54,275 bases of DNA, taken from positions 1 through 54,275 of the forward strand of contig CANEVR010000011.1 of NCBI GenBank assembly GCA_947442505.1, given 5' to 3'. A program made the translations under genes and the position numbers. Within the stretch, counting starts at the first letter, position 1, and every line of letters starts with the position of its first letter. The notes below the pieces were generated by a model. The model saw only the letters and a program-made list of their open reading frames with translations. It was not told where the DNA came from and did not search any database. Shown here in pieces: positions 45,356 to 52,596 of this stretch. The DNA is from Flavobacteriales bacterium. GTDB taxonomy: Bacteria; Bacteroidota; Bacteroidia; Flavobacteriales_D; Sanyastnellaceae.

Positions 45356-45766
45356 TTAAAATGCCAGTACACGTTCTGGACCAAGAAGAGGAATCTTGGA
45401 TCCCTTAAAATCTTTGATGTTTCTGGTAACGATTCCATCCAAGTTTCTGATGGAGTAAGCGCACTCCAGCTGCATGGCATCTTCCACATCTTTCCAACCT
45501 GACCTGAGAGAACGCACAATCATTTCATCATTCAATGCAATAACGCTGCTGTTTTCCATTAAAGCCAAAATGGCCATCCGCAATGGTTTTTCTTCACTGT
45601 ACTTCCGTAAAACGTAATAAACAGATGCTATAGAATGAGAGGAAACAAAAACCTTTATCCTACCCTGCTCTGCAGCTTCAAAAATTTGCTGCGCGTGATG
45701 AGCGAAGGGCAATCGACAAGCCAAAAAATCAATGAGAATATTGGCGTCTAAAAAATAGCGTTTCAT
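45356..45766 (-). CDS. PIN domain ribonuclease toxin
   Basis: A 136-residue type II toxin. The PIN fold is visible from RYFLDANILIDFLACRLPF (first Asp), the SSHSIASVYYVLRKYS helix, GWKDVEDAMQLECAYS (acidic pair) and DGIVTRNIKDFKGSKIPLLGP, where the last Asp lies in the TRN-xxDF motif. PIN toxins cleave RNA, often tRNA or mRNA, and are neutralised by a DNA-binding antitoxin. Starts at 45766 with a 4-base overlap (ATGA) onto the antitoxin stop. Confidence 0.9.
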   Translation of the reverse strand: MKRYFLDANILIDFLACRLPFAHHAQQIFEAAEQGRIKVFVSSHSIASVYYVLRKYSEEKPLRMAILALMENSSVIALNDEMIVRSLRSGWKDVEDAMQLECAYSIRNLDGIVTRNIKDFKGSKIPLLGPERVLAF

Positions 45767-45999
45767 TGATGTTTGGTTTTCAAGTAGGCATTGCATTCTG
45801 CTTTCTCATCAAAATTTTTGGGCAATTGAGCCACACCCATGTACTTTGAAATCCCTTCCTTTGCGGTGGAGTTAGGTTGATTAATCAATTCCGTCAAATA
45901 GGTTTCAATCAACGATGACAAACTCCGACCTGATGCTCGTGCAAAATCTTTGGCTTTAGATGCAATCTCTTCGTTGATGGATAAAGTAAGCTTGTACAT
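45763..45999 (-). CDS. Antitoxin, ribbon-helix-helix / DUF6364-like
   Basis: A 78-residue protein. MYKLTLSINEEIASKAKDFARASGRSLSSLIETYLTELI matches the N-terminal RHH-like helix-strand pattern of DUF6364 antitoxins (partly quoted: LTLSINEEIASKAKDFARAS). The C-terminal tail (YMGVAQLPKNFDEKAECNAYLKTKH) probably wraps the toxin. ATG 45999 is chosen over the 46056 start, which lies beyond the operator. It is first in the operon and should repress its own promoter through the inverted repeat at 46004-46032. Confidence 0.85.
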   Translation of the reverse strand: MYKLTLSINEEIASKAKDFARASGRSLSSLIETYLTELINQPNSTAKEGISKYMGVAQLPKNFDEKAECNAYLKTKHQ

Positions 46000-46003
46000 T
46001 TTG

Positions 46004-46032
46004 TTACGTATTATTTCATCAAATATACGTAA
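46004..46032 (-). promoter_or_regulatory. TA operon promoter and operator (inverted repeat over -7 box)
   Basis: TTACGTAT (46004-46011) and ATACGTAA (46025-46032) are perfect 8-base inverted arms separated by 13 bases. The -7 box, TATATTTG on the minus strand, lies at 46020-46027 and is partly covered by the right arm; a TTG at 46044-46046 (16-base spacer) may be the -33. This is the arrangement expected for autorepression by an RHH antitoxin. Confidence 0.7.
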
Positions 46033-46107
46033 ATTATTTGTAGCAAAATTTCTCATTTCATTTTTTTTGCAAAATTGCGGCTAAGCATGGTACGAAAAAA
46101 GAAATGC

Positions 46108-46257
46108 TTAACAGGCATATAACGGGCATATAAATGCAAATAATTCTATTGAAGTGAATTTGTGCTTATATCCCGAAACTGCAGAAAAGCTAATCGCAGT
46201 CTCCAAATCTAATTTTCCTTTTACCCAATTCTCGTATGTTATTCCCAACTTAGCCAT
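46108..46257 (-). CDS. Possible small ORF (49 residues), doubtful
   Basis: An ATG-started frame with 49 codons in the 375-base gap between the TA operon and the tRNAs. It starts MAKLGITYENWVKGKLDL and ends FICPLYAC. I do not recognise it. The first half is mildly hydrophilic with typical composition, which could be a remnant of a longer gene. No promoter is visible. May be chance. Confidence 0.25.
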   Translation of the reverse strand: MAKLGITYENWVKGKLDLETAISFSAVSGYKHKFTSIELFAFICPLYAC

Positions 46258-46359: not shown

Positions 46360-46374
46360 CTGCATTTAACTAAG

Positions 46375-46459
46375 TACCCCGGGCGGGACTTGAACCCGCA
46401 CGACCGCAATGGTCACAGGATTTTAAGTCCTGCGTGTCTACCGATTCCACCACCAGGGC
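46375..46459 (-). tRNA. tRNA-Leu (TAA)
   Basis: 85 bases, class II. Acceptor 5' GCCCTGG pairs with CCGGGGT through G-U wobbles; anticodon loop CTTAAAA contains TAA (reads UUA); a long variable arm (GACCATTGCGGTC) is typical of Leu; the T arm GCGGG-TTCAAGT-CCCGC is perfect. The 3' CCA is not encoded. Confidence 0.95.
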
Positions 46460-46483: not shown

Positions 46484-46509
46484 AAAAAATCCCGACTAGG
46501 TCGGGATTT
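46484..46509 (-). terminator. Intrinsic terminator between tRNA-Gly and tRNA-Leu
   Basis: AAATCCCGAC (46487-46496) and GTCGGGATTT (46500-46509) make a perfect 10-bp stem with a 3-base loop. On the minus strand the T run is the A tract 46484-46489. It would end a tRNA-Gly transcript before tRNA-Leu. Confidence 0.85.
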
Positions 46510-46515
46510 ACCTTG

Positions 46516-46588
46516 AGCGGGAGACGAGACTCGAACTCGCGACCCTAACCTTGGCAAGGTTATGCTCTACCAACTGAGCTACTCCCGC
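46516..46588 (-). tRNA. tRNA-Gly (GCC)
   Basis: 73 bases. Acceptor GCGGGAG/CTCCCGC, D arm AGCTCAGTTGGTAGAGC, anticodon loop TTGCCAA with anticodon GCC, T arm GCGAG-TTCGAGT-CTCGT. CCA is not encoded. Preceded by a strong promoter at 46609-46638. Confidence 0.96.
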
Positions 46589-46646: not shown

Positions 46647-47918
46647 TCATCTTTTTTTCCCTTCCCATTTTTCCACTATGGTTTTCAATACTTTGTCCGT
46701 CGCTCCGGCTCCTCTCCTCACCAACTCTCGGGCATTCTTTCCCACTTCTTTGCCTTTCTCTGTATGCTCAATCCAATCCTCCAATTGTCGCTTTGCTTGC
46801 TGCATATCTTCTACTCTTGAACCTCCCCCGAGCTCGACCATCAACTTGGCCTCCATAAATCGTCCATCATTGGGTCCCCAAAGCACCGCACATCCATGGG
46901 CCGCGGGCTCCAAAATATTGTGTATTCCCTTTCCCCATCCTCCTCCAACAACTGCCATCTCCCCCAATCGATACAAACCACCCAAATCCCCCATAGTATT
47001 CAAAATCAATACCCGCTTCTCCAATCCCTTTCCTGTCTGTAGCATCTCCGTTGCCCGAACCGTCTCTCCCAAAAAACGCTGCTCAATGGATGCAATGCGA
47101 TGCTCTTCAATGTGGTGAGGCGCAATGACCCATTTGACATCGTTGTATTTTAATACCAAAGACTGAATCATGGTCTCTTCCTCTTCATAGGACGAACCCA
47201 ATACCACCACCCGATTTTGTCCTTTCCAATTCGCAAATTCAGTTTTCAAAACTGCCTCTTGTGCCACCTTCCAAACACGGTCATAACGCGTATCCCCACT
47301 CACCGTCCATTGATCTATTCCTATTCCTGACAACAACCGACCAGAGGCTTCGTCTTGTAAATGAAAGTCCCCTATGCGCTGCAAGATTCCTGACCAATAA
47401 ACTTTGAGCAACCCCGAAAAAAAACGATGCTGTGGTCGGAAAATAGCCGAAAATAAAATGACAGGAATACCTATTTCTTGCAGAATGCGGAGCATATTGG
47501 GCCAAACCTCATACTTCACAATGGCAACTGTACTGGGCCGCATTGCCTTTATAAAACTAGACATCGCTCGCGATGTATCTGCAGGCAAATAAAGAATCAA
47601 ATCTGCACCCGAATAATTCTTTCGCACCTCATAACCACTCGGGGAATAAAAAGTCAGCACCACCTTGGCGGTTGGATAGCGTGCTTTGAATTCCTCAATA
47701 ACTGGACGACCTTGCTCAAACTCACCCAAAGATGCGGCGTGGATCCAAAACACTTTCGCGTCCGGATTTTGCGCACGCCATTCTTCAATCATCGCAATGG
47801 AATGACGCTGTCCTTTGAACAATTGAGCGGCTTTTAAGGAAAACAGAGAGGCTAGGCCCAATAATATCTGATAGACTTTTAAGACAACACCCAAAATATG
47901 ATCCAAGACCACCATCAA
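46647..47918 (-). CDS. waaA: 3-deoxy-D-manno-octulosonic acid transferase
   Basis: A 423-residue membrane-associated GT30 enzyme that adds Kdo to lipid IVA in lipopolysaccharide assembly. After an N-terminal membrane helix (YQILLGLASLFSLKAAQLF) come WIHAASLGEFEQGRPVIEEF (catalytic Glu in the GEF motif; the family's conserved start), FYSPSGYEVRKNYSGADLILYLPAD and, at the end, GGGWGKGIHNILEPAAHG with donor-binding GxGKGIHN. Length is normal. It overlaps the outer membrane protein gene by 4 bases, ending an operon that starts at fabD. Confidence 0.96.
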   Translation of the reverse strand: MMVVLDHILGVVLKVYQILLGLASLFSLKAAQLFKGQRHSIAMIEEWRAQNPDAKVFWIHAASLGEFEQGRPVIEEFKARYPTAKVVLTFYSPSGYEVRKNYSGADLILYLPADTSRAMSSFIKAMRPSTVAIVKYEVWPNMLRILQEIGIPVILFSAIFRPQHRFFSGLLKVYWSGILQRIGDFHLQDEASGRLLSGIGIDQWTVSGDTRYDRVWKVAQEAVLKTEFANWKGQNRVVVLGSSYEEEETMIQSLVLKYNDVKWVIAPHHIEEHRIASIEQRFLGETVRATEMLQTGKGLEKRVLILNTMGDLGGLYRLGEMAVVGGGWGKGIHNILEPAAHGCAVLWGPNDGRFMEAKLMVELGGGSRVEDMQQAKRQLEDWIEHTEKGKEVGKNARELVRRGAGATDKVLKTIVEKWEGKKR

Positions 47919-48667
47919 TTCATGTAAAATTTATCTGGTGCGCGCCGGTACAAATGCAAAACCCAACCCAACTTCAATCCCACATATCCATCAGATCGCT
48001 TTCCTTGGTCCGCTTGCTGGGTATCGTAATTGTAGCCACGAACACTATGCGTTTGGCCTTGAATCCACTCTACTCCACCCACCAAATTAATCAACTTGTT
48101 GTTGCTCATGTAGAAGTAACCCAAGAAGACACGCCCCATGAATCCTGCTGTGAGTCTGTCATATCCTCGAATATAGTCACCCTGTAAGGCATTGATTTCA
48201 TGGCTTTGGTGCTCCAATCTGATTTTGTGTGTCATATAACCCAAACCCACTGTCGCCAAAAGGCCACTGTTCAAATTGGGGCCCAACTTATTGAACAAAT
48301 GTCCAGCCTCTAAACAAGCTGACCATCCCCTTTGCTGCACATAGACGATAGATGGTTGTCCCTGATTGTCCAGAATCTCTCCTTGATCGGTATACAAATT
48401 TTGCATCAAGCCGGCCTCGGTAACTTTATTTCCAAAATGATATTGGAATTGCGCTCCCCAATAGTGACTCTTTTTGTCTTTGATATCAAAGGCCATTCCC
48501 AAGGATCCGGATGGACCAAATCGTTTGGCCAAATCTGCCACCGGTGAATGGTGTCCGTACAAAATGGAAATGTGCGGATTAAACAACACACTGTCTCTCA
48601 CCTGATATTGAGCCTGCAACTGAGACACAAAAAAAATCAATCCCAAAACCAAATACAACTTCTTCAC
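47915..48667 (-). CDS. Hypothetical outer membrane beta-barrel protein
   Basis: A 250-residue exported protein with signal peptide (ends VSQLQAQ). The rest alternates aromatic strands (HYWGAQFQYHFGNKV, LLATVGLGYMTHKIRLEH, FMGRVFLGYFYMSNN, GYVGLKLGWVLHLYRR) suited to a small outer-membrane barrel. Family not identified. Overlaps by 4 bases both the response regulator gene upstream and waaA downstream, so it sits in the middle of a translationally coupled operon. Confidence 0.75.
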   Translation of the reverse strand: MKKLYLVLGLIFFVSQLQAQYQVRDSVLFNPHISILYGHHSPVADLAKRFGPSGSLGMAFDIKDKKSHYWGAQFQYHFGNKVTEAGLMQNLYTDQGEILDNQGQPSIVYVQQRGWSACLEAGHLFNKLGPNLNSGLLATVGLGYMTHKIRLEHQSHEINALQGDYIRGYDRLTAGFMGRVFLGYFYMSNNKLINLVGGVEWIQGQTHSVRGYNYDTQQADQGKRSDGYVGLKLGWVLHLYRRAPDKFYMN

Positions 48668-49356
48668 TGTACCACCAATTTAAATCCAACTCCGTGAATA
48701 TTGACTATTGATATGTTTTCATCTTGCGACAAATACTTTCGCAGACGCGTGATAAAAACATCCATGCTTCTTCCGACAAAGTAATTGTCATCTCCCCAAA
48801 CCATGTTGGACAAAAGTTCCCGCTCTAAAACTTGCCCCTGATGATCGACCAGTAACTTCAACAAATCCGCTTCCTTCTTGGTCAACTTTCGCTGCGATAT
48901 AGGACCAATCAACTCGAAATTTTTGAAATCAAACTGATACTTGCCAAGCGTCTGAATGGTCTGCGTCTTGGTCGAAAACTTCTCATTCCTTTTTAAGATG
49001 GCCTTGATTCTCAGAATCAACTCCTCACTAGAAAATGGTTTGGTGATGTAATCATCGCCACCCAATTGAAATCCTTTGATCTTGTCTTCTGACAAACCTT
49101 TGGCGGTTAAAAAAACAATGGGTATGGTTTCGTTGATTTTGCGAATATCCTCAGCCAATGAAAAACCATCCTTCTTGGGCATCATTACATCCAACAAACA
49201 GAGGTCGTAAGATTGCTTATTGAATTGCACCAATCCCTCTTTGCCATCTGTAGCCAAATGCACAACATACCCCTCCTCCTTCAAGGTGTCCTGAATGACA
49301 AAACCCAAGTTTCGATCATCCTCGACCAACAAGATATGTGGCAGTTGATTTTCCAT
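48664..49356 (-). CDS. OmpR-type response regulator
   Basis: A 230-residue two-component regulator. The receiver domain has the acidic pair D13/D14, phospho-acceptor D56 in LCLLDVMMP, T in FLTAKG and K in YITKPFSSEEL. The C-terminal winged-helix domain (LTKKEADLLKLLVDHQGQVLERELLSNMVWG, VFITRLRKYL) binds DNA. Partner kinase is next to it (13 bases). TATCTTTC, a one-mismatch -7 box 4 bases before the ATG (49361-49368), allows separate transcription. Confidence 0.96.
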   Translation of the reverse strand: MENQLPHILLVEDDRNLGFVIQDTLKEEGYVVHLATDGKEGLVQFNKQSYDLCLLDVMMPKKDGFSLAEDIRKINETIPIVFLTAKGLSEDKIKGFQLGGDDYITKPFSSEELILRIKAILKRNEKFSTKTQTIQTLGKYQFDFKNFELIGPISQRKLTKKEADLLKLLVDHQGQVLERELLSNMVWGDDNYFVGRSMDVFITRLRKYLSQDENISIVNIHGVGFKLVVQ

Positions 49357-49369
49357 GAACGAAAGATAA

Positions 49370-50641
49370 TCAATTTTTACTCAAGGGAAGTTCAAGTGTA
49401 AACACGGATCCTTTTCCCAATTCACTCTTTACAAAAATCTTCCCCTTCTGCGCTTTGAGCATGGTCTTTACATAGAACAATCCCAAGCCAAATCCTTTGA
49501 CATCATGAATATCACCGGTTGGAACACGATAAAACCGATCAAAGATCAATCGCTGTTGACGCCTATTGATACCAATTCCGTTGTCTTTAAAGTCTATACG
49601 AATACTATTCTTGGTGTTGTAGGTGCTGACTTGTATTTGCGGAACTTTATCCGTGTACTTGATGGCGTTGTCCATCAAATTGTAGATGATGTTGGAAATG
49701 TGGACGCGATCCGCCTTGATTCTGCCATTCTCCGCATCCAATGATAAATGCAAATGTCCTCCGACATCTTCCACCCGACCCAAATTGGCCTGATACGCAT
49801 CCCGAATGATTGCATGCACATCAAAACTTTCCCATTGGATATTTCTTTTTCGTGGTGTCAAAGAAGACAACTGCAAGACCTTCTCCAATTGATCTTTGAG
49901 ACGCTGGGTTTCTGTTTCGATGATGCCGATATAGGTGTTCATGCGTTCGACATCCAATCTGGTTTTGTCTTGCTTCAGCACCTCCGCGCTCAATTGAATG
50001 GTGGCCAAGGGCGTTTTGAGCTCATGGGTCATGTTGTTCACAAAATCATTGCGAATAGAACCCAAGCGTTTCTCCCGAAACAACACGCCGATGGTGTAGG
50101 CAAAAAAGACAAAAATGAGAAAGATGATGCCGGTGCTGTACATCCAGAAATCAATGCGCTTGAGCAGGTAAACATTTTTTTGCGGAAAGTAAAGACTAAG
50201 GTAATGGCCCTCTTCTGGAGAAGCTATCAATCCGCTTGGAATGTTTGCTTCCTTAAACAAACTATCAGAAAACAACCAACCACTGACTTCAAATTGTCCA
50301 GTAAAACAATCGTACAAACCATACTCCACTGGTTCCACCAATCCCTCTAAAATGAGTTCCTTCTCCAAAAGCGTTCGCAACAAAAAAGAATCAGGGGTAT
50401 GATTGATCACCACCAAAAAACGAGAATCATTGATTCGCTTGGCAGGAGTCAATAATGATTTATCATTCTCAATCAAATGAATTTTGGTCGCAACATCCGT
50501 CAAGGCAGTTGTCACCTTTGATTCAAAAACCCTTTCTTGTAATTGGTAGGCTTGACGCACCCAATAGACCTGACCTGCGGTGATCAATCCAAGAGAGATC
50601 ACCGCAATCAGAATAATAACAACGATACTTCTTTTAATCAT
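49370..50641 (-). CDS. Sensor histidine kinase
   Basis: A 423-residue membrane kinase: helix at about 7-25, a periplasmic domain of ~130 residues, helix at about 165-187 (YSTGIIFLIFVFFAYTIGVLF region), then HisKA with H206 in MTHELKTPLATIQ and a HATPase_c domain (LMDNAIKYTD N box, DNGIGI, FGLGLFYVK). Phosphorylates the adjacent OmpR-type regulator. The periplasmic sensor (TPDSFLLRTLLEKELILEGL) is not a named domain. Overlaps fabD by 4 bases, an unusual neighbour for a kinase. Confidence 0.96.
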   Translation of the reverse strand: MIKRSIVVIILIAVISLGLITAGQVYWVRQAYQLQERVFESKVTTALTDVATKIHLIENDKSLLTPAKRINDSRFLVVINHTPDSFLLRTLLEKELILEGLVEPVEYGLYDCFTGQFEVSGWLFSDSLFKEANIPSGLIASPEEGHYLSLYFPQKNVYLLKRIDFWMYSTGIIFLIFVFFAYTIGVLFREKRLGSIRNDFVNNMTHELKTPLATIQLSAEVLKQDKTRLDVERMNTYIGIIETETQRLKDQLEKVLQLSSLTPRKRNIQWESFDVHAIIRDAYQANLGRVEDVGGHLHLSLDAENGRIKADRVHISNIIYNLMDNAIKYTDKVPQIQVSTYNTKNSIRIDFKDNGIGINRRQQRLIFDRFYRVPTGDIHDVKGFGLGLFYVKTMLKAQKGKIFVKSELGKGSVFTLELPLSKN

Positions 50642-51528
50642 TCACCCCACTCCGCTGAACGAACAGGAAGATCTCGATTGACTTTCTTAAATAGACCTTG
50701 CAATACTTTTCCGGGTCCAACCTCGATTACTTCAGTACAACCATCGGCAATCATGTTCTCCATGATTTGTGTCCAACGCACGGGAGCTGTTAATTGCTCA
50801 ATCAATAAATTCTTAATGGTTGCTGGATCTGTTTGCGGTTGTGCATTCACATTTTGATAAACCGGACAAATGGGCGCTTGAATGGGCGTTTGTGCAATGG
50901 CCGACATCAACTCTTCTTGCGCTGGCATCATGAGTGGACTGTGAAAAGCTCCTCCAACTTGCAATTTCAAAGCGCGCTTTGCTCCCGCTTCTGTCATTTT
51001 TGCACAAGCCAAATCAATGGCTTCATTGCTACCTGAAATAACCAACTGACCGGGACAGTTGTAATTAGCGGCAACGACCACCCCATCAATACCTGCGCAA
51101 ATCTCTTCCACTTTCGCATCCTCCAAACCAAGTATAGCCGCCATTGTTGAAGGATTGATTTCACATGCTTTTTGCATGGCCATGGCGCGAGCTGAAACCA
51201 AACGTAAACCATCTTCAAAACTAAGCGCCTTAGCGGCAACCAATGCCGAGAATTCACCCAAACTGTGACCTGCCACCATGCTGGGTTGAAAAGCATCACC
51301 CAAGCAAGCCGCCATGACCACGGAATGTAAAAAGATGGCGGGCTGAGTAACCTTGGTTTGTTTTAATTCTTCTTCCGAACCATGGAACATGATTTCGGTA
51401 ATATTGAAACCTAAAATTTCATTGGCACGATCCAACATGGATTTCGCCAATTCATTCCCTTCATAGAGATCCTTGGCCATGCCGGGGAATTGAGCACCTT
51501 GACCAGGAAATACGTAAGCCTGCTTCAT
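50638..51528 (-). CDS. fabD: Malonyl-CoA:ACP transacylase
   Basis: A 296-residue enzyme that loads malonyl onto acyl carrier protein in fatty acid synthesis. YVFPGQGAQFPGM, catalytic S89 in GHSLGEFSALVA, the Arg of VSARAMAMQ, and the His of GGAFHSPLM are all visible, as is TGVTxP-like CPVYQNVNA. Length is normal. It begins the operon and overlaps the kinase gene by 4 bases. TAAATTAG (51536-51543), a variant -7 box, covers the stop codon of the upstream T9SS gene and ends 7 bases before the ATG. Confidence 0.97.
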   Translation of the reverse strand: MKQAYVFPGQGAQFPGMAKDLYEGNELAKSMLDRANEILGFNITEIMFHGSEEELKQTKVTQPAIFLHSVVMAACLGDAFQPSMVAGHSLGEFSALVAAKALSFEDGLRLVSARAMAMQKACEINPSTMAAILGLEDAKVEEICAGIDGVVVAANYNCPGQLVISGSNEAIDLACAKMTEAGAKRALKLQVGGAFHSPLMMPAQEELMSAIAQTPIQAPICPVYQNVNAQPQTDPATIKNLLIEQLTAPVRWTQIMENMIADGCTEVIEVGPGKVLQGLFKKVNRDLPVRSAEWGE

Positions 51529-51540
51529 AACTTTTCTAAT

Positions 51541-52596
51541 TTATTTTTTCATCCATTTTTTAGTTACACCATTGATCTCAATGAAATATGTTCCTTGAGC
51601 AAGTGAAGACGCATCCCATTGGCCTAAAGCACTCACATTGTCATAAAAAACAACAGACCCTTTCTCGTCTACAATCTTCACCTTAGATGGTGATTCTGTT
51701 TTAATGTTCAATGATGAACCTGGGTTGGGGAATACCGTCCAATCAGACTGTACATTTAAATCGATTGAATTGGGACCAGTTGAATAAATCAATGCGCCTG
51801 TTGTTGCACCCAAGGCTGTATTGATTTGCAATAATGGCACTTTGATTCCGGGAGTCAACCATTTATACTCTACCGCCTCTGGTCGAGGAAAAGAAAATCC
51901 AAAAGAGAATTGAGAAATGTACAATGAGTCATTGCCCGTCACAGTTGATTTGACTTTGATAACAGGATAATCTGTCCCGAAAAAATTCATTGTGCCTTCA
52001 GCGAGCACCTCTGTTCTTCTTGTTTGAGCAGTGGTATAAGATCCCAATGTGGGGATGTCATATTGAAAATAAGAATCATTGGTTTGATCCAGAGGATAAG
52101 TTAATGGCAATGGATAAATAACATCAATGGGATTCCCTTGTGCACCAGTTGGAAATCCACTGATGCTTGCGCCAAAACCTGTCAGTGCATAACGCGCTGC
52201 AGTTACTTGATAAAACGCATAAGTGTTTTCTATAGTGATAGGAATAGGAATGGGCAATTGATCGGTTGGTAAAGCTGGCGGCGCAGTAATGGTGGTGTAA
52301 TCACTGTTGTGATCGGGATCAAAAGGCGAATTGAAAAAGAATTGATAAGCAAAGGGTGCATTGGTCAATGGTTCGCAATTGACTGTTGTATAAGTTCCCA
52401 ATGGCGCTAGCACAGAAGCGCTGACATTCCAACTCTGTCCAGTGCCCGTTTGATCCAAATTCCAATTGCCATTCCATGTGGCATTTTCTTGAATCAGCAC
52501 ATCACCAGATGCAGGCATATCTGATGAGGTAATATACACTTGCGCAAAAATTTGAAATTGACTTAAAAAACAACCGACCAATAAAATACTCTTCAT
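51541..52596 (-). CDS. T9SS type A sorting domain protein
   Basis: A 351-residue exported protein with signal peptide (ends QIFAQ), an uncharacterised body of beta strands (QENATWNGNWNLDQTGTGQSW; PLPLTYPLDQTNDSYFQYDI) and a C-terminal type A T9SS sorting domain (WTVFPNPGSSLNIKTESPSK, VFYDNVSALGQWDASSLAQGTYFIEI ending in KKWMKK). It is secreted to the surface or medium; function unknown. Followed by fabD after 12 bases. Confidence 0.85.
   Translation of the reverse strand: MKSILLVGCFLSQFQIFAQVYITSSDMPASGDVLIQENATWNGNWNLDQTGTGQSWNVSASVLAPLGTYTTVNCEPLTNAPFAYQFFFNSPFDPDHNSDYTTITAPPALPTDQLPIPIPITIENTYAFYQVTAARYALTGFGASISGFPTGAQGNPIDVIYPLPLTYPLDQTNDSYFQYDIPTLGSYTTAQTRRTEVLAEGTMNFFGTDYPVIKVKSTVTGNDSLYISQFSFGFSFPRPEAVEYKWLTPGIKVPLLQINTALGATTGALIYSTGPNSIDLNVQSDWTVFPNPGSSLNIKTESPSKVKIVDEKGSVVFYDNVSALGQWDASSLAQGTYFIEINGVTKKWMKK

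Follow-up and report, generated by a model that had tools for sequence, protein, structure and literature searches.

The described systems closest to the locus studied here are the RprX/RprY two-component pair, the PhoPR pair of R. anatipestifer and, for the barrel protein of the locus, the lipid A 3-O-deacylase PagL. In the parts of the published accounts available to us, PhoPR is described as conserved in Flavobacteriaceae, loss of PhoP lowers survival in peroxide, and the PhoP regulon is broad, with 583 peaks and 764 genes (PMC9603813, PMC5399024). In the DAP-seq study, as available in part, the most conserved bases of the PhoP motif are TTTAACA, and PhoP binds its own promoter (PMC9603813).

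The locus described below joins a two-component pair, which we call TCS-2, to genes for fatty acid synthesis, an outer-membrane barrel and Kdo transfer. At the level of titles and abstracts, literature joining at least four of fabD, waaA, histidine kinase, operon and Flavobacteriales contained no such operon, and none was apparent among the papers listed for DUF1573 with two-component systems, for waaA/kdtA with barrels and for Flavobacterium regulons. We consider it reasonably probable that the run is a genus-specific composite envelope operon that took in TCS-2, and that the main conserved target of its response regulator is an exported CGC-motif DUF1573 protein.

Genes and junctions of the run

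The window, by which we mean the whole stretch of 54,275 nucleotides that was analysed (contig C11), belongs to a 2.64-Mb draft genome (G000; 106 contigs, 96.7% complete). The preliminary description had placed fabD, a histidine kinase (HK), a response regulator (RR), a barrel gene and waaA in one run on the minus strand, and open reading frames, protein families and sequence all agree with it on this (Table 1). The Glycos_transf_N match of the waaA product is the sole one in the genome, and its matches to NCBIfam equivalogs are all under cut-off (best 165.8 versus 438 bits). Kinase and regulator carry the domains expected of an OmpR/PhoB-family system, with PF00072 at 102, PF00486 at 64.9, PF00512 at 54.2 and PF02518 at 82.2 bits, all above cut-off.

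Table 1. Features of the run and its flanks, in the order of transcription (window positions).
Feature	Position	Strand	Evidence
T9SS-sorted exported protein	51541-52596	-	Por_Secre_tail PF18962 / TIGR04183
fabD, malonyl-CoA:ACP transacylase	50638-51528	-	TIGR00128, 319.2 bits, above cut-off of 260.9
TCS-2 histidine kinase (HK), periplasmic sensor	49370-50641	-	HisKA + HATPase_c; H-, N- and G-box strings
TCS-2 response regulator (RR), OmpR/PhoB type	48664-49356	-	Response_reg + Trans_reg_C
8-strand outer-membrane beta-barrel, signal peptide	47915-48667	-	AF2 model, PDB neighbours, waaA linkage
waaA, Kdo transferase	46647-47918	-	Glycos_transf_N (PF04413), 138.1 bits, above cut-off of 23.9
tRNA-Gly (gcc)	46515-46588	-	ARAGORN
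Terminator-like hairpin, between tRNA-Gly and tRNA-Leu	46487-46509	-	Consensus scan (11 found in the region versus 6.1 expected)
tRNA-Leu (taa)	46374-46459	-	ARAGORN

As had been reported, fabD and HK overlap by 4 bases (ATGA), RR and the barrel gene likewise (GTGA), and 13 bases separate HK from RR. The third 4-base overlap claimed, between barrel and waaA, depends on the start codon: with a TTG start at 47918 the junction is TTGA, and with an ATG start at the next codon (47915), which is at least as likely, it is TGATG, a 1-base overlap. Because this spacing is operon-like, the genes are presumably co-transcribed; a sigma-70 promoter scan performed at chance level (15 found versus 13.5 expected). 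The run also extends beyond the genes first listed, with a T9SS-sorted gene on the 5' side of fabD and two tRNA genes on the 3' side of waaA. The T9SS-sorted gene ends 12 bases before the start of fabD, stands upstream of fabD in loci L022-L025 of its genus (g1), and probably opens the run.

The barrel protein matched no family of Pfam or NCBIfam at E 0.001, and a sequence search of solved structures gave a chance match only (E 0.46). The PDB neighbours of its AF2 model (8 strands, pLDDT 89.5) are general 8-strand barrels; PagL is among them (2erv_B: Z 15.0, rmsd 2.7, 133 aligned), with NspA, OmpA, OmpW and others tied or higher. The catalytic triad of PagL is His/Ser/Glu. At the triad-like positions 186/188/200 of 47 barrels, H is found in 27 (the window has Y), S in 36 and E in 36. 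Three of the 47 members have a weak Pfam hit to PagL, the one examined scoring 19.8 bits against a cut-off of 23. We rejected a PagL-type lipid A deacylase as the identity of the barrel, since the H-x-S...E triad is not conserved and the window has Y-x-S. R113, D170, R210 and D226 are present in all 47 members and, judging from strand order in the model, would lie near the extracellular strand ends. From its partner waaA one might guess at a role with LPS.

TCS-2 and its neighbourhood among relatives

RprY is the best-scoring NCBIfam response regulator model for the window RR, at 278.7 bits and thus under its cut-off of 370. The same genome holds a second, RprY-like pair on contig C78 that reaches 319 bits, versus ~280 for the window RR, and is also under that cut-off. 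In midpoint-rooted RR and HK trees, 17 RprXY-like rows form one exclusive clade; in the RR tree, the f1, f2, f3 and f4 rows fall on the window's side of the root, and five rows from f5, f6, f10 and f11 on the RprY side. With a score under cut-off, a better-scoring pair on C78 and a position outside the RprY-like clade, the window RR was rejected as the RprY orthologue. On sequence grounds we regard it as a second paralogue of RprY.

The cysteine C112 is invariant in the TCS-2 sensor (39 of 39 sequences) and is its only cysteine in 38 of these. This motif was not seen in the RprX-like rows inspected, several of which are incomplete and two of which have other cysteines. The AF2 model of the sensor (pLDDT 85.0) had no match in the PDB at E 0.001, and therefore no ligand can be named. 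In G025 (genus g20) a diverged pair stands head-to-head with fabD (L217, 6330-7292, plus strand); its RR is 52% identical, and its kinase is without the periplasmic sensor and its cysteine.

The preliminary description had suggested a survey of the gene order across Flavobacteriales and took restriction to close relatives as refuting its proposal. Such a restriction is what we find: the whole run of five co-directional genes was found in G000-G003 only, all of genus g1. These are four of the five g1 genomes in which the locus is assembled. The fifth, G006 (92% complete), has the T9SS gene, fabD, the barrel gene and waaA with HK and RR missing between them, and the one kinase that it matches at E 1e-40 groups with the RprXY-like rows. 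Neither fabD nor the barrel gene was found in G004 and G005 (60-64% complete). What does hold more widely is proximity: several further genera of the family also have parts of the run close together, in other orientations.

Two sets of genes can be followed through these relatives. One is the barrel gene with waaA. The barrel was found in 51 of 60 relatives, and tblastn placed a waaA match beside it in 48 of the 50 loci fetched (the exceptions are L064 and L070). In a set of 130 loci that was not de-duplicated, waaA follows the barrel gene on the same strand, starting within 700 bases, in 124; L064, L070, L103 and L150 fail this rule, whereas L034 and L049 miss it solely because the distance was measured to the wrong match, waaA being ~20 and ~180 bases away. 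Both tRNA-Gly and tRNA-Leu come directly 3' of waaA, on its strand, in 12 of the 17 loci that were scanned; one further locus has tRNA-Gly only. A DegT-family aminotransferase gene is found beside barrel-waaA on the opposite strand in L035, L039, L044, L050, L054, L062 and L069 (PF01041 match in L044), with further surface-sugar genes in some of those loci.

The other is TCS-2, which passes E 1e-80 in 38 of 114 family genomes, a lower bound because five g10 genomes below this threshold have TCS-2 by tree. HK lies within 220 bases of fabD in 16 of the 38, co-directionally in four (g1) and head-to-head in 12 (eight of g8, three of g11 and one of g17); the distance is 3.6 kb in G024. It lies within 13 kb of the barrel gene in 15 of the 38, representing 8 of 15 genera and both orientations: the same strand in g1, g10 and g18, opposite strands in g8, g11, g16, g19 and g21. 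The two genes are >2 Mb apart in G017 and G079 (g12), and in the remaining TCS-2 genomes they are on separate contigs or one of them was not found. To judge from these sequence comparisons, the neighbourhood predates genus g1 and the single co-directional run does not.

Other neighbours of TCS-2 were also seen. An ACP phosphodiesterase gene lies near it in many genera (cluster c4, 11 loci; PF04336 in L195, the one member tested), including L195, L196, L197, L199, L200 and L204-L206, and is a second acyl-carrier link of TCS-2 beside fabD. Other genera have a gene for a secreted protein placed divergently from HK. In other families, the genes before a TCS-2-like kinase are what we take to be groES-groEL (L184, L192, L193), and genes nearby in L192 and L193 are presumably ftsZ/ftsA.

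A candidate box and the DUF1573 genes

Upstream of HK in several genera there is a direct repeat, TGTTAAT-N4-TGTTAA, with an 11-base repeat. Direct repeats of this geometry resemble OmpR/PhoB sites, and the candidate box looks like a Pho box. Exact copies number 31 in 28 genomes, versus 4 for the reversed control, with three of the 31 forming one overlapping array in G060; ten genomes, G000 among them, have none. Of the 31 exact boxes, 19 precede one of two genes: the TCS-2 kinase in ten cases (one of these, in G060, assigned from its coordinates) and a DUF1573 gene in the other nine. The others are scattered, two of them beside phosphate genes (G006, G045).

Whether the kinase has its own box differs with its linkage to fabD. 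By a matrix of HK-promoter sites, the box is present at 20 of 29 loci unlinked to fabD (12 of these sites built the matrix; L157 was excluded as a duplicate and L042 as incomplete) versus none of 15 linked loci. A mixed matrix at score 12 finds the box before HK in 19 of 46 loci overall; background hits at this score number 78 for the reversed matrix versus 15 for the matrix.

Before DUF1573 genes, the box is present in 24 of 26 genomes with TCS-2 (20 of 22 without four g10 genomes that were reclassed as TCS-2-present by tree after their boxes had been seen), in 1 of 21 without it (11 checked at E 1e-40, 10 at 1e-80 only) and in 0 of 6 g20 genomes with diverged TCS-2, which were set apart after the tree on the evidence of one, G025. 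DUF1573 sites contributed to the original matrix; the counts do not change when only HK-promoter sites are used to build it. From background and reversed-matrix rates, ~0.0006 to 0.003 of such upstream regions would be expected to reach score 12. Fisher's test gives p = 4.6e-10 with ancestry not corrected for, and the absences of TCS-2 and box cluster by ancestry into perhaps about three losses. The exceptions are G053, which has the box with no TCS-2 found, and G022 and G026, which have TCS-2 with weak half-boxes only. Within g1, G006 is without both TCS-2 and the DUF1573 box, and G000 and G003 have both. G131, without box, was scored in the HK-promoter matrix run only; G097 has only 67 bases upstream; and TCS-2 genomes with no usable DUF1573 orthologue, such as G001, G023, G055, G072 and G073, are outside these counts.

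The two DUF1573 proteins tested match PF07610 at 98.0 and 98.6 bits (G071, L242 and G003, L264), above the cut-off of 26.1, and GSCGCTVP is present in 16 of 16 proteins parsed. DUF1573 is tabulated as a selenoprotein family with the motif UGC in the available part of a survey (PMC9312934), which together with GSCGCTVP hints at a redox role for the protein.

G000, the window's genome, has a single occurrence of the relaxed pattern TGTTAAWNNNNNGTTAA, at 5162-5178 of contig C71 and thus outside the window; it starts 76 bases before a DUF1573 gene. Across 12 genomes this pattern has 15 hits, 9 of them before DUF1573, versus 32 for the reversed control; because the control is commoner, the number itself is no evidence. 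Upstream of the window's own T9SS gene, fabD, HK, barrel gene and waaA, all matrix scores are below 3. Among relatives, no barrel gene (0 of 113) and no fabD gene (0 of 12) has an upstream region that reaches score 12; two of the 110 waaA genes do, in each case on the other strand and ~200 bases up. The suggestion that RR may sense envelope state and set both fabD and waaA is thus not supported by the distribution of the box. By sequence, the DUF1573 gene appears as the better-supported RR target than the operon genes. Elsewhere in the window, a box-like word, CGTTATATGCCTGTTAA, lies at 46108-46124 on the minus strand (matrix score 14.1). It precedes by ~50 bases a DUF6364/PIN-domain gene pair (45356-46056) resembling a toxin-antitoxin module.

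Readings of the locus and comparison with described systems

In the composite-operon reading that we favour, an old barrel-waaA(-tRNA-Gly-tRNA-Leu) block and the conserved TCS-2 pair would have been rearranged behind fabD into one co-directional run; several related genera already have these two modules close to each other and to fabD. HK and RR would then be expressed along with housekeeping genes of the envelope and would lack the autoregulatory promoter that TCS-2 appears to have elsewhere. A periplasmic signal would activate the kinase, and RR would bind the direct repeat TGTTAA(T)-N4-(T)GTTAA and act mainly on the small exported CGC-motif DUF1573 protein encoded on C71, not on fabD, barrel or waaA. 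The gene order, its distribution, the box and the co-occurrence of box and TCS-2 are observed, and from them co-transcription, binding, direction of regulation and signal are inferred. The motif core and self-binding of R. anatipestifer PhoP, another flavobacterial OmpR-family regulator, speak for this reading; if PhoP were the TCS-2 orthologue, its 583 DAP-seq peaks would argue against a one-target regulon. As TCS-2 lies near waaA and fabD in several genera, a functional link to them is still conceivable.

A rival reading is the one first proposed, in which TCS-2 senses envelope state and directly balances fabD (fatty acid synthesis) against waaA (lipid A) through this operon. In its favour, 16 of the 38 TCS-2 genomes have the pair linked to fabD and 15 have it linked to barrel-waaA, and genus g10 also shows HK, RR, barrel and waaA in co-directional order. 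Given the near absence of the box at fabD, barrel and waaA, the location elsewhere of the sole relaxed box of the window's genome, and a G006 that keeps fabD, barrel and waaA without TCS-2, we find direct balancing quite improbable. Alternatively, a different regulator of the OmpR family (RprY or PhoB) could own the box, and shared ancestry would explain why it coincides with TCS-2. The recognition helices of RprY-like and TCS-2 regulators are related, the box lies near phosphate genes in G006 and G045, and G053 has a box with no TCS-2 found. Yet RprY-like pairs occur in genomes with and without the box, in many genera it is the TCS-2 kinase itself that follows the box, and box and TCS-2 vanish together in G006 within its genus; another owner seems unlikely to us.

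Placement might also have been selected for supply, tying the amounts of sensor and regulator to growth and fatty acid synthesis with no control of the operon by RR. All 15 fabD-linked loci lack the kinase's own box, most of those lineages retain the DUF1573 box, and the starts in the run overlap. Neutral rearrangement accounts for the same facts, however, and many relatives manage without such an arrangement; we treat selection for supply as a speculative and rather unlikely idea. Equally speculative is a bolder reading in which TCS-2 is a periplasmic thiol- or redox-responsive system of Flavobacteriales: its lone invariant cysteine would control a very small regulon centred on an exported CGC-motif DUF1573 protein of redox function, and some genera would have swapped the autoregulatory promoter for that of fabD, sensor supply following fatty acid synthesis.

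For a regulator conserved in flavobacteria, the composite-operon reading offers a candidate binding site and a candidate target that can be tested, and it ties DUF1573, an exported family of unknown function, to a sensor pair. It also singles out the uncharacterised barrel as a constant genomic companion of waaA, and illustrates how a regulator can enter a housekeeping operon with no sign that it controls the operon.

Among described systems, PagL resembles the window barrel in being an 8-strand barrel and differs in its H-x-S...E motif, which the barrel family does not conserve; other 8-strand barrels fit equally well or better. R. anatipestifer PhoP is, like the window RR, an OmpR-family regulator of the Flavobacteriales, and in the motif cores, which alone were compared, its TTTAACA is the reverse complement of TGTTAAA; its regulon is broad, and the available parts of its description make no mention that we found of DUF1573, fabD or waaA. 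RprX/RprY shares with the window TCS-2 the combination of an OmpR-type regulator and a HisKA kinase. TCS-2 differs from it in a regulator score below the RprY cut-off and in its separate clade, and the genome has a better RprY-like pair of its own on C78.
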